Part shown: piece after piece, positions 4,452-8,602 of the stretch | Position numbering within the stretch: position 1 is the stretch's first letter | How the letters are laid out: every line of letters starts with the position of its first letter | Assembly: GCA_937941455.1 (NCBI GenBank) | Contig: CALDHM010000010.1 | Location: 62,001 to 126,000, forward strand | Length of the DNA: 64,000 nucleotides | Direction of reading: 5' to 3' | From: an uncultured Pirellulaceae bacterium | Lineage (GTDB): Bacteria > Planctomycetota > Planctomycetia > Pirellulales > Pirellulaceae | Notes under the pieces: generated by a model | What the model was told of the DNA's origin: nothing | What the model saw: the letters and a program-made list of their open reading frames with translations, nothing else | Databases searched by the model: none | Made by a program: the position numbers and the translations under genes

Positions 4452-5489
4452 TTATTTGTCCGACTTTTCGCCCCCCCCTGCTGACTTCGGCTCAGGCGGA
4501 TAATTGGGGATCGGCTCATTGGCCGCGAGCTTAGCGACGATCTGTGGCAACGACAATTGGCTGGCGATGCGAGCCACCTCGAATTCGGCGTCGGTCATTT
4601 TGAATTTCTGGTCAGGACCAATTAGCCACAGGGAAGGAAACTGGGACAAGCCATAGTCGCGCGCGACCTTACCATCCCACGGGCCGCACACGATAACCTG
4701 TCCCGGCAACTCGGCCTTGGCCACGACTTCTTTGACCCGATTGACATTGGTCTCCATGCACGCCGATACCAGAATAACTGGCTGTGAAGGCTGCTGTTGT
4801 TGCAGGTTTTCCCACAAGGCCTTTTGAAATTGCAGAGCCGGTCCTCCGTCGATCATCCAGAAGACGACCAGCACATGCTGACCGGCCAGCGACTTCAGTT
4901 CGAAGGGCTTGTCATCGAGCGTTTTTCCCTCCAGCGGGGGTGCGGCCTGTCCCGCCACCCACAGCGGCGTGGCCACCACATCCAATTTGCCGACCACCAT
5001 TTCGTCGACTTGCGGCGCGACCTCGAGAGCGCCGAAAACCTGAAACGCGTATTCGACATCTTTGATTTTCTTGTTGACCACGCCGTACAGCTGATAGCGC
5101 CCGGGTGGAATGTCGTAGACCTTGAAGTCTCCGTTGGGCTCGATCCGCACGTTGAACGTTTTCGCGTTGTCCATCCGCTGCTGGCGATCGGCAAAAAAGG
5201 CCTTGCCTTCGGCCGACTCTTGAAACGCCGACCACCATTTATTTTGTTCCTCGGCGGATAGCGACTGCCAATTTTCGGGAATCGGCAGGGGGGGCAAAAA
5301 TACGTCCTCGAGCAACTGCAGGGGCAACTCGGCCGCTTGGAAAACTTCGGCGTATTCCGCAGGCACCGAGACCGTTCCCAAAATAGTGGTCCCGTCCTGA
5401 GAAGCCTTCTTTTTTGGAGGATCCTGGGCAACAAGCGACCCCGCGCAGACTAGGCAAACCAACAATATCAACCACAATCGCATAGACAC
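4452..5489 (-). CDS. Secreted thioredoxin-fold (TlpA/redoxin-like) protein lacking CxxC
   Basis: This 345-residue protein begins with a signal peptide (MSMRLWLILLVCLVCAGSLVAQ, cleavage after AQ), so it is exported. The first half is a planctomycete-type beta-rich region that includes VRIEPNGDFKVYDIPPGRYQL, resembling a carboxypeptidase-regulatory-like fold. The second half is a redoxin fold (LEGKTLDDKPFELKSLAGQ, then HVLVVFWMIDGGPALQFQ). The usual CxxC that follows VVFW is replaced by MIDGG, so disulfide exchange by that site is impossible. Two cysteines remain in SACMETN and VIVCGPWDG. GGAAGG lies 7 nt before a GTG at 5489, which favours GTG over the ATG at 5483. Confidence 0.75.
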   Translation of the reverse strand: MSMRLWLILLVCLVCAGSLVAQDPPKKKASQDGTTILGTVSVPAEYAEVFQAAELPLQLLEDVFLPPLPIPENWQSLSAEEQNKWWSAFQESAEGKAFFADRQQRMDNAKTFNVRIEPNGDFKVYDIPPGRYQLYGVVNKKIKDVEYAFQVFGALEVAPQVDEMVVGKLDVVATPLWVAGQAAPPLEGKTLDDKPFELKSLAGQHVLVVFWMIDGGPALQFQKALWENLQQQQPSQPVILVSACMETNVNRVKEVVAKAELPGQVIVCGPWDGKVARDYGLSQFPSLWLIGPDQKFKMTDAEFEVARIASQLSLPQIVAKLAANEPIPNYPPEPKSAGGGEKSDK

Positions 5490-5533
5490 CGAATCGCCTT
5501 CCGTCAGAAAACCAAGATTTCACTCGAGTGCAC

Positions 5534-5599
5534 TAGCTACCGTCGCCAGACGGTGGAGCATCAAATCGAAACCAGACCACCGTCTGGCGACGATGGCTA
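5534..5599. repeat. Long perfect hairpin (family C palindrome)
   Basis: CGTCGCCAGACGGTGG (5541-5556) and CCACCGTCTGGCGACG (5577-5592) are exact inverted repeats of 16 bp. The stem extends to about 23 bp with two wobble pairs (TAGC at 5534 with GCTA at 5596) around a 20-nt loop. There is no T-tract. It lies 45 bp upstream of the start of the minus-strand gene 4452-5489. Only one copy is seen here. From memory, similar CGTCGCCAGACGGTGG palindromes occur between genes in related planctomycetes; this was not checked. Confidence 0.7.
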
Positions 5600-5971
5600 C
5601 ACCCCGTTAGCTCGCAGTTCGTTAGCGAACACTACAGATGACTGAGTGGTTCCGAACCAACCAGCCCTGATCGAGCGCTTGGCCGTCATCGACATCCGCG
5701 CGTCGAAAACCGTTGACCTAGCGCTTTCTCTATGTCTCTATTATGATTGACTTGCTCAGGCCGTCAAAACAAGGCCCGGAGCAGTTTCTCCGCCTTACCT
5801 GGCTTGTCACGGCCAATGGCCGGGTTGCGATCCCGCCCAAGGATTTTCTCGAAAAAAATTTTTGCAGAACTTGACGAGTTGCTCTTGATTCGGGCTGATC
5901 CGGCGAAAAACCCCGTCGATTGATGCGATAGCATGGCACGAACGAAACTTTTGAAATTTCGCAAAGTTGCC

Positions 5972-6000
5972 TTGACGCGTTCTTAGGCTTTTCATACCTT
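5972..6000 (+). promoter_or_regulatory. Candidate sigma70-type promoter for the 6007-6255 RNA
   Basis: TTGACG (5972-5977) and TACCTT (5995-6000) are separated by exactly 17 bp. The -35 matches five of six consensus bases and the -10 is weak. The predicted start near 6007 is one base before the first hairpin of the candidate RNA. No plus-strand protein gene follows. Confidence 0.4.
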
Positions 6001-6006
6001 GCAGCC

Positions 6007-6255
6007 ACGTTGATGGGACGGAGACGCTCATGGTTCCAGCAACGAAGACAAACCAAGTGAAACTGTTTTGTTTTGTTGGCCTCGCGGCTAACTCGTGACT
6101 AGGGAACGGCATGGAGGCTTGACCCGGAAGCGAGGACAAAACAATTCGAAGTCGATCAGCATGGATTAGCGCGATCGACCTTCATCCAATCGCTCTCGGC
6201 TAGTGCGCGGAGTCCTTCACCCCCCTGGACCCAACCCCTTCCGAGAGCTTTTTTT
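6007..6255 (+). ncRNA. Candidate structured non-coding RNA
   Basis: This stretch has a promoter-like start (5972-6000) and an intrinsic terminator at its end but no credible plus-strand reading frame. Hairpins run almost end to end. H0 pairs CGTTG/CAACG plus GGGA/TTCC (6008-6044). H1 pairs TTGTTTTGT and CCTCGC (6068-6085, 3-nt bulge) with GCGAGGACAAAACAA (6130-6144). H2 pairs GTCGATC/GATCGAC (6151-6179). The terminator stem is GCTCTCGG/CCGAGAGC with T7 (6192-6255). I compared it by eye with tmRNA, RNase P, SRP, 6S and common riboswitch signatures and found no match. Expression is not shown by sequence; this is an inference from structure and position. Confidence 0.42.
6192..6255 (+). terminator. 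Rho-independent terminator, long loop
   Basis: GCTCTCGG (6192-6199) pairs with CCGAGAGC (6241-6248) and is followed by seven Ts (6249-6255). The loop of about 41 nt can form a smaller inner stem (GGAGTCC with GGAC). It points along the plus strand, where no protein gene precedes it, so it implies another transcript. Confidence 0.55.
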
Positions 6256-6383
6256 ATGCGCCAAGCGGACAAGCTTTTCCCAGGATTGCCACGAAGGCAG
6301 CCGACGAAGGAAGCGCAGTACCGCGGCTGACAAATCCGAAGCGCAGCGGGTCGGCCATTCCTCCCACCAAGGCGGGAATTCGC

Positions 6384-7229
6384 TCATTCGCCGTCGGGAA
6401 GCTTCGGATTTTTGTAAAACTGTTCGAGATTGATCCCCTTTTCGCGCTGCTCGTCCTCCAGCAGCTTGACCCGCACTTCCAGCTTTTCGACGATCTTGGC
6501 GAGTTTCGGCAGCAGCTCTTCTTGGGGGTCCTTCGGTTTGGGTTTCGGCACTGCCGGATAATTGAGTTGCCGCTGTAACGCCGAGAAAAAATAGAGCGGT
6601 TCCTTACGGCGATTGGCCAGTGCGATCCGCCCCTCTTTCTCGCTGAATAGCAGGGGGACCGGCCGATGCGGGTCTCCCCCCTCTTGCTGGCTACGGATCA
6701 CGTAATAGTCGCTGTGAACGTACACTAGGTCGGCCAGTTCAACCAAGCCGATTTTGTGGCGGATCGTGGCCATCCAGTTGCGCCACACCTCATCGTAGAT
6801 CGGGTCTTGGGCCATCGCCGCCAACCCCTTGTCATAGCTCAATCGATTGCGGCATAGGACCTCGAATTGAAAGAAAAACATCGCCGAAAATGTGGTGAGG
6901 CTCGTCCGAAACAAAGCCTCGGCCTCCAAGATCTGAAAGGCCCGATTCATATCCAACCGACTTTTTTCCGACTCCGCATTCTCGACCAAAAAAGTTTGAA
7001 ACGGAGTGAAGTAATGAGACATCCGCCCCATGGCCGTGGCCATCAGTCCGACATGATTGAGTTCAGCCAGGAGATAGTCGATCGCCAGTGGCAGTTTAGT
7101 GGTCGAGAGGATCTCCTCGCGAACCGATCGGAGCAGCTCTTGCGCCGGCTCGTTGGCTTGCATCCGATTGGCCAGTGCCCGAAACAGATGGGCTTGCTCG
7201 ATGTATTCCTCTTTTTCCAGCAAGGGCAT
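6384..7229 (-). CDS. Conserved planctomycete-type protein with C-terminal coiled coil, function unknown
   Basis: The frame is open back to 7652, but the ATG at 7229 (MPLLEKEEYIEQAHLFRAL) has GGAGAGG 9 nt upstream, and the residues before it overlap a terminator, so the protein is about 281 residues. It is soluble and largely helical, with no signal peptide or membrane segment. Segments such as KLPLAIDYLLAEL and FTPFQTFLV look well conserved in character. The last 60 residues (LAKIVEKLEVRVKLLEDEQREK) form a coiled coil after a proline/lysine linker. I recognise it as a conserved family of planctomycetes without an assigned role. It is a single gene. Confidence 0.75.
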   Translation of the reverse strand: MPLLEKEEYIEQAHLFRALANRMQANEPAQELLRSVREEILSTTKLPLAIDYLLAELNHVGLMATAMGRMSHYFTPFQTFLVENAESEKSRLDMNRAFQILEAEALFRTSLTTFSAMFFFQFEVLCRNRLSYDKGLAAMAQDPIYDEVWRNWMATIRHKIGLVELADLVYVHSDYYVIRSQQEGGDPHRPVPLLFSEKEGRIALANRRKEPLYFFSALQRQLNYPAVPKPKPKDPQEELLPKLAKIVEKLEVRVKLLEDEQREKGINLEQFYKNPKLPDGE

Positions 7230-7468: not shown

Positions 7469-8581
7469 TCACCGCTGTTGACGCTGAATCGGCACCGCTC
7501 GCTTGCCTTCGTCCTTGTCCTTTCCCGCTGGCAAATGGACTTGTAAAAAGTCGGCCGCACTCTCGACGATTTCTTGATTCACGAAACCGCCGAAATGGCC
7601 GCAGTCGGGAAGCACGACCAAGGTACTGGGCAAGCCCATTTCGAGACGGCACCGGTGGAATCGCTGCGATAACTCCAAGGGCACGACTCGGTCGAATGCA
7701 CCATGATACAAAAAGACTGGTTCAGCCGTCGCGGGGCCGCAGTGAGCCAGCGGCGACGCCAAGGCGAACAGGCGGGGATTCGATCGTCGCGTAGCCCGCA
7801 ACCAATACCACAAGGCGTACGAGTCCTCGTCGATCCATTCGAAATGGCAAGGGCTGCCTCCGGCCACCACCGCCGCGACATGCGGCGAGACGCCGCGCAA
7901 GTTTTCCGGAACATCCCGCTCCAACTCCAATGGACAATCGGCCAACAACAACAACGCAAGATGGCCACCTGCCGAATAGCCGTAGGCCCCGATCGCTGAC
8001 GGGTCGATCTTCAGCTCAGCCGCATGGGCCCGCACCCAGCGAACGGCGTTACGGCAGTCGATCCATTGGGCTGGAAATGGATGCCAGGGAGATTTGCGAT
8101 AATTGATGGCGACAACCACAAAGCCGCGGCGGGCCAGACGCCGGGCGTGAAATTGCCAATTGAATTTGCTCCCCCAAGCCCAAGCGCCCCCATGCAGCAT
8201 GACGACGGCCGGAAACGGCCCAGGGCCAACCGGTCGATACACATCGAGCTTCATGCTCCAGGTTGGTCCACTGCTGTATTCTATCCCCCCCTGCTTTTCG
8301 ATCGCAGTGGAGTCAAGCGGCCGCTGCGACGCCTTTCTCGCCAACGTGTTTTCGACTGACTCCCCTTCGTTTAACGCAACTGCCACCGACGACAACCGCA
8401 ACGACGCCTTTCTCGCCAACGTGTTTTCGACTGGCGCAACCGCGCCGAAAGTATTCGACTCCTGAGCAACGGCAGACAAATTGCACGAACTTGTCATCGA
8501 CCAAGCGACAGAAAACGCCGCCATGATTCGCTGCCATCGCGGCGATCTGGCAAATAACCTAAATCTCTGCATGGCCTTCAT
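7469..8581 (-). CDS. Secreted alpha/beta-hydrolase (BD-FAE/esterase-lipase type)
   Basis: This carboxylesterase-like protein is about 370 residues long. The N-terminus (MQRFRLFARSPRWQRIMAAF and following residues up to AVAQ) looks like a signal peptide. The hydrolase core shows the HGGAW oxyanion loop, the nucleophile elbow GYSAGGHLA, acid FDRVVP and histidine DCGHFGG. Between export signal and core lies a linker in which VENTLARKAS occurs twice, encoded by a 32-bp exact repeat. The start is uncertain: ATGs at 8602, 8581 and 8572 are in frame and none has a strong ribosome site. The substrate is unknown; a short-chain or plant-ester deacylase is possible. A clear terminator follows. Confidence 0.82.
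   Translation of the reverse strand: MKAMQRFRLFARSPRWQRIMAAFSVAWSMTSSCNLSAVAQESNTFGAVAPVENTLARKASLRLSSVAVALNEGESVENTLARKASQRPLDSTAIEKQGGIEYSSGPTWSMKLDVYRPVGPGPFPAVVMLHGGAWAWGSKFNWQFHARRLARRGFVVVAINYRKSPWHPFPAQWIDCRNAVRWVRAHAAELKIDPSAIGAYGYSAGGHLALLLLADCPLELERDVPENLRGVSPHVAAVVAGGSPCHFEWIDEDSYALWYWLRATRRSNPRLFALASPLAHCGPATAEPVFLYHGAFDRVVPLELSQRFHRCRLEMGLPSTLVVLPDCGHFGGFVNQEIVESAADFLQVHLPAGKDKDEGKRAVPIQRQQR
8327..8433. repeat. Two 32-bp exact direct repeats inside the hydrolase gene
   Basis: The 32 bases at 8327-8358 recur exactly at 8402-8433, 75 bp apart, which is 25 codons and therefore keeps the frame. In the protein each copy reads VENTLARKAS. The 43 bp between copies are not repeated, so this is not a simple tandem duplication of a longer unit. 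Confidence 0.9.
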
Positions 8582-8602
8582 CTTCTCTGCTCTCGATACC
8601 AT

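Follow-up and report, generated by a model that had tools for sequence, protein, structure and literature searches.

The window analysed here is a stretch of 64,000 nucleotides from contig CALDHM010000010.1 (assembly GCA_937941455.1) of an uncultured Pirellulaceae bacterium. On its plus strand, flanked by minus-strand genes at 4452-5489 and 6384-7229, lies a candidate small RNA gene at 6007-6255, of which the start was placed from the -10 element and the end from the terminator, in line with the promoter and terminator of homologous loci. The promoter (5972-6000) has a -35 element TTGACG (5972-5977), a 17-nt spacer and a -10 element TACCTT (5995-6000), and the terminator stem (6192-6248) is followed by seven T residues (6249-6255). 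A preliminary description of this DNA had proposed this promoter, a plus-strand terminator with a T7 tract at 6192-6255 and a plus-strand element set between minus-strand genes, all of which are borne out by the window sequence. Plus-strand small ORFs at the locus have 13-24 codons, and the gaps in an alignment of the genus (A2) do not come in triplets. Directly after the U tract, at 6256-6261, we noted the hexamer ATGCGC, of which TGCGC recurs in some 80% of the 90 aligned copies.

The neighbouring gene at 4452-5489 has a weak AhpC-TSA match in Pfam, below the cut-off. For the 281-aa product of 6384-7229, no match was found in Pfam at E ≤ 0.001 or among the other loci at E ≤ 1e-4. None of the six proteins around the sRNA gene had a match at E ≤ 1e-4 in other loci, and the control on L001 was found; since the flanks of most other loci are short (0.5-1.5 kb), this comparison tests the lack of synteny only in part. 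Upstream of the 4452-5489 gene we also observed a long imperfect inverted repeat at 5534-5599 (arms 5534-5556 and 5577-5599), which looks like a dispersed repeat. In addition, an alpha/beta hydrolase ORF at 7469-8602 has two copies of VENTLARKAS, an internal repeat close to the N terminus (at about 8330-8431).

The minimum-energy fold of the RNA starts with a 5′ hairpin, H0, at 6008-6044, with exactly the limits proposed before; its sequence varies within the genus. Hairpins H1 and H2 had been placed at 6068-6144 and 6151-6179. Both are present in the fold, but with other limits, namely 6059-6147 for H1, which is branched, and 6148-6183 for H2. Within H1 lies the first CsrA-type hairpin, GGC-AUGGAG-GCU (6108-6119, loop 6111-6116), and GCAAGGAUGC-like words are found in the genus relatives L002-L004. 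The second CsrA-type site is the apical loop of H2, AUGGAUUA (6161-6168), where a GGA is found at the same place in L002-L004, although in L004 it is not clearly paired. The GGAs of the two sites are 50 nt apart, and the first site alone is a strict hexaloop, the loop of the second being 8 nt long. A conserved CATCCAATC (6183-6191), seen in the columns of alignments A1 and A3, precedes the intrinsic terminator (6192-6255), which combines an 8-bp outer stem, GCUCUCGG/CCGAGAGC, and a U7 tract with an inner GUCC/GGAC hairpin (6212-6230). The loop of this inner hairpin is C-rich, with six C residues at 6220-6225. Neither the CsrA-type hexaloops nor this C-rich loop, which together point to a function, had been noted in the preliminary description.

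Taken as a single sequence, the RNA exceeds chance in its folding by a small margin only (z = -1.47), and 16 of 200 shuffles reach the same stability. In addition, a generic promoter and terminator scan of 5480-6400 listed neither the promoter nor the terminator of the sRNA, because the -10 element has three of the six consensus bases and the scan allows only loops of 3-8 nt. The case for the gene therefore rests on comparison. What exceeds chance by conservation is the promoter type, the terminator region throughout the order and the covarying terminator stems.

To follow the RNA in relatives, 60 genomes were searched by BLAST with positions 5960-6260 as the query. The matches cover mainly the last 50-130 bases, through genus, family and order. 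From 28 BLAST-found loci with a terminator we built a covariance model, R1, which these seeds match by construction and whose E-values are rough owing to a short calibration. In an order-wide draw of 146 Pirellulales genomes, R1 matched 133 at E ≤ 0.01, with E below 1e-7 in 129, and mostly with one copy each; the 13 genomes without a match include G041 and G046, both of which have csrA. In a draw from the whole phylum, 45 of 392 genomes matched. Among the matches listed there, the order was represented by 12 of 12 genomes and family f21, which we infer to be Planctomycetaceae, by 26 of 27 (E from 2.6e-10 to 6.7e-4), whereas the single genome of f22, also in this class, had no match and seven of 352 outside the class matched, all at E between 1e-3 and 1e-2. 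A class draw at E ≤ 0.001 gave 66 of 148 genomes (35 from the order, 30 from f21 and one from f118), and its misses include at least 20 genomes in f22 and f118-f120. Finally, an exact pattern run over GTDB species genomes found 54 loci, every one in Planctomycetota, with Bythopirellula polymerisocia, Lacipirellula limnantheis and Mariniblastus among the hosts, names that identify the order as Pirellulales. One f21 genome, G633, carries three R1 matches on its contig 1, all below E 1e-4.

A set of 211 loci was compared with a core pattern, which 155 of them fit, 137 of these being distinct. The 56 loci failing the pattern include csrA and 6S loci, L001-L003, 18 Planctomycetaceae loci and more than 20 order homologues. 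The 18 Planctomycetaceae loci were inspected individually, and L055 gave no sequence.

The same type of promoter as in the window, TTGAC-N16-20-TAnnnT, is found upstream of 116 of the 137 distinct loci, compared to one of 135 antisense and one of 80 downstream controls. Among these 116 promoters the spacer is 17 nt in 99 and 18 nt in 17, TTGACC occurs in 98 and TATTCT in 58, and the commonest form is TTGACC-17-TATTCT. An AAA located 7-9 bases ahead of the -35 element and a CCCGCC after the -10 element are also conserved; apart from this AAA, the region upstream of the -35 element has only conspicuous CG positions. Promoters under stringent control typically have a GC-rich discriminator, and from the GC-rich stretch after the -10 element we would guess at growth-rate (stringent) control of the sRNA. 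When 40 genomes were searched with the strict promoter pattern, nine of the 11 matches were located at the present RNA; the remaining two (L230 and L233) are not followed by a C loop and seem to be leaders of protein-coding genes. Over the homologues, inferred RNA lengths centre on 305 nt (median; 10-90% 232-382, range 148-442). The earlier proposal of a trans-acting or regulatory RNA of about 250 nt gains good support from this comparison, given a conserved promoter and terminator of its own, and the RNA is probably trans-acting.

The terminator region is conserved as well. Six or more consecutive C residues stand in its inner loop in 90 of 90 aligned copies (alignment A3, which holds 90 of 239 loci and was fitted to R1, itself made from C6 loci), a conserved C run of the kind that marks the terminator loops of B11, 6C and RepG. 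Ten terminator pairs are changed on both sides versus 4.1 in shuffles, a number reached by none of 500 shuffles. Covariation is seen in the outer stem with its AU extension and in the inner GUCC/GGAC stem, where three of four pairs show changes on both sides. Pairing holds in 95.5% of the terminator cells, versus 26-66% for slid versions. Covariation in relatives had been named in the preliminary description as a check on the element, and for the terminator stems it is present.

The preliminary description had also regarded the element as unlike tmRNA, RNase P, SRP, 6S and the riboswitches compared by eye. When the region was searched against Rfam, no family reached its cut-off, and ARAGORN found no tmRNA in the window. 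Over the whole window, nothing reached an Rfam cut-off except a tRNA elsewhere. For 5700-6420, with matches up to E 10, only two eukaryotic families appeared, on the minus strand and far below their cut-offs. Twenty homologues (E ≤ 5) gave weak eukaryotic matches and, in L099, the bacterial sRNA BjrC68 below cut-off. Csr/Rsm families were absent from the matches of both searches, so that no covariance model of the CsrB/RsmZ kind recognises the RNA, and McaS was likewise absent from the output for 5700-6420 and the 20 homologues. Concerning 6S RNA, in three relatives (G045, G005 and G013) a 6S RNA above cut-off sits on another contig than the present RNA; RF00013 had no match at E ≤ 1 in the genome of the window (G000). 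The loci L154-L157 are candidate 6S genes of Pirellulales relatives, of which L154-L156 are above the Rfam cut-off.

We next turn to the body of the RNA and its GGA hairpins. A strict hairpin was defined as an ANGGAN hexaloop closed by at least three pairs, and hairpins were counted in RNA bodies with the terminator left out. The set consisted of the 137 distinct loci and the re-added L001-L003 (140) minus 21 without a recognised promoter, leaving 119 RNAs. These contain 113 ANGGAN hexaloops, with 104 different hairpin sequences, compared to 3.6 (sd 1.7, maximum 7) after dinucleotide shuffling, repeated 20 times, and none on the antisense strand, whereas BNGGAN control loops showed no enrichment (five versus 10.2 in shuffles). 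When all loops of six bases on stems of four or more pairs were ranked free of any motif, ACGGAT (18) and AAGGAT (17) came first of 376, and 81 of the 376 have GGA at loop position 3. Of the ANGGAN words chosen regardless of pairing, 123 of 243 have three flanking pairs, versus 66 of 1042 such words in the DNA around the RNAs and none of 51 on the antisense strand, and C-G is the closing pair in 110 of these 123 paired sites. Pairing of the flanks exceeded all 500 permutations of flanks among sites, at all seven distances. Minimum-energy folding places a GGA in a hairpin loop in 104 of the 119 RNAs, but not in the other 15, with a mean of 1.43 versus 0.29 when shuffled.

With loops of 5 or 6 nt allowed, at least one strict site is present in 91 of the 119 RNAs and two or three in 38; 28 have none, 88 have one or two and three have three. 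L026 has a single GGA. Paired sites are 18-168 nt apart, 26 of 52 at 50-80 nt. Among the 18 Planctomycetaceae loci, six have a strict hairpin within the presumed transcript, for instance ggcAUGGAUgcc (L050, L051, L052, L057, L062 and L064), and seven are short forms without one (L046, L049, L053, L054, L056, L060 and L063). In these short forms the promoter lies close to the terminator. Predicted CsrA sites are hence not universal in this RNA family. Because some loci, the short forms included, have no strict GGA hairpin, the C-loop terminator is, judged by sequence comparison, the constant part of the RNA, and the CsrA sites are a frequent module. The C-loop terminator may also carry the older function, since some Planctomycetaceae copies are devoid of GGA hairpins.

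The hairpins resemble a described binding code. The high-affinity CsrA/RsmE site is an ANGGAX hexaloop placed directly on a stem, the hexaloop stems of RsmZ close with C-G, and a loop longer by two bases is bound about tenfold less tightly (PMC4005645); hexaloops of the form CANGGANG are mentioned for CsrA as well (PMC4894983). By these affinity data the second site of the window, with its 8-nt loop, would be the weaker form. A putative binding partner is encoded in all 60 relatives, each of which has csrA, and the genome of the window has six csrA matches. In the four CsrA copies read (one own, three from relatives), residues L4 and R44, which we take to be the RNA-binding residues, are kept. 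Co-occurrence with csrA says little, however, because every relative tested has the gene. FliW is present in 54 of the 60 relatives, and the RNA is found in all six without it (G006, G019, G035, G044, G048 and G052). As the RNA occurs with and without FliW, loss of FliW does not predict it; the pattern shows that the RNA is not dependent on FliW and does not separate the hypotheses.

At the level of sequence, the comparison establishes the gene, its promoter and terminator, the hairpin motif and the co-occurrence with csrA. We interpret the locus, with a probability of roughly 0.7, as a member of a new family of CsrA-binding sRNAs that probably also act by base-pairing, encoded by a stand-alone gene with a sigma70-type promoter in Pirellulales and a sister family. 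The RNA body would mostly offer one or two CsrA sites of the high-affinity type in the form of ANGGAN hexaloop hairpins, on which a CsrA dimer could be captured. Such capture would either lower the level of free CsrA or bring CsrA to the RNA, and the C-rich terminator loop might pair with target mRNAs at G-rich ribosome-binding sites. CsrA binding, the targets and transcription of the RNA are what we infer in this scheme. The small number of strict sites, the 8-nt loop of the second site in the window and the loose spacing are points against the CsrA-binding reading.

We prefer such a dual RNA, binding CsrA and pairing through its C loop, over one that would only titrate CsrA in the manner of CsrB or RsmZ, with the C-loop terminator serving stability and termination. 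Titration alone would agree with the enrichment of hexaloops on stems that turn over in sequence and with several csrA matches per genome. We nevertheless consider it unlikely: 88 of the 119 RNAs have one or two strict sites, 28 have none and three have three, an invariant C6 loop (90 of 90) is needless for a plain terminator, and the short forms retain the C loop although they lack the GGA hairpins. That same invariance, together with the existence of these short forms, favours the converse idea of an sRNA that acts by base-pairing through its C-rich loop, as RepG, B11 and 6C do, with the ANGGAN hairpins being structural or meant for another protein. We regard this as somewhat less probable still, as the hairpins agree with the CsrA/RsmE code from the literature in the A, the GGA, the C-G closure and the variable N, and all 60 relatives have csrA. 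That the RNA is a diverged 6S RNA or some other known housekeeping RNA, which the near universal distribution in the order with mostly one copy might suggest, is highly improbable in view of the separate 6S genes in three relatives, the lack of an Rfam match at cut-off for 5700-6420 and the lack of an ARAGORN tmRNA in the window. Equally improbable is a conserved terminator or DNA element without a functional RNA, which would fit the weak z-score of the single-sequence fold but not the promoter, found at 116 of 137 loci and at only 1 of 135 in antisense, nor the hairpins with covarying stems between promoter and terminator.

For the dual RNA we also envisage a wider role, to which we would give slightly less than even odds: a Csr-type RNA system outside Gammaproteobacteria, spread over two families or orders of the class, which joins CsrA binding and C-loop pairing in one molecule, controls a non-flagellar CsrA, coexists with FliW and stays where FliW was lost. 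PMC7652899 and PMC4894983 tie CsrA-antagonising sRNAs to Gammaproteobacteria, and for Planctomycetes, as for some other groups, control of CsrA by FliW has been suggested (PMC4682653). The line around Gammaproteobacteria is less sharp because flaA mRNA titrates CsrA in Campylobacter (PMC4894983) and Csr/Rsm sRNAs have been called widespread throughout bacteria (PMC4005645). If a conserved CsrA-type RNA is truly present here, dedicated RNA control of CsrA would have arisen more than once or be older than thought, and it could live beside FliW. Eight sRNAs are counted for the whole PVC group in Table 1 of PMC9029176, and planctomycetes would gain a widespread and readily testable RNA.

In the open-access literature searched on CsrA, sRNAs and structured RNAs in planctomycetes, we found no description of the present RNA. 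The TwoAYGGAY motif is known for its AYGGAY loops. Its listing covers human gut samples, gammaproteobacteria and Clostridiales (PMC2864571), and the present RNA differs from it in having no such Rfam match in the window, the region or 20 homologues. The Rhodopirellula-1 motif, listed in the same source without an Rfam number, might be the same RNA; it is listed for Proteobacteria as well as Planctomycetes, whereas the 54 exact-pattern loci of the present RNA are all from Planctomycetota. The present RNA resembles CsrB/CsrC and RsmX/Y/Z of Gammaproteobacteria in its ANGGAN-type GGA loops, stand-alone gene, intrinsic terminator and a csrA gene in the genome. It differs from them in the lack of an Rfam match, in having usually one or two strict sites versus the 22 GGA of CsrB (PMC7652899), in the FliW that 54 of 60 relatives also have and in its conserved C-rich terminator loop. 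This loop recalls other sRNAs: RepG of Helicobacter has a C/U-rich terminator loop, and the mycobacterial B11/6C RNA has a C-rich loop in its intrinsic terminator. In B11 this loop pairs with G tracts by ribosome-binding sites (PMC12395582), which makes B11 a precedent for the proposed action of the C loop; RepG is described in PMC8295292. Unlike these RNAs, the present one has no Rfam 6C match and carries CsrA-type hexaloops, which the excerpts on B11/6C and RepG do not mention for them. The closest parallel to the proposed dual action, CsrA binding and base-pairing in one RNA, would be McaS of Escherichia coli, which binds CsrA at few sites and also base-pairs (PMC10729762). The present RNA likewise has few CsrA-type sites, and the base-pairing that is known for McaS is predicted here from the conserved C loop.
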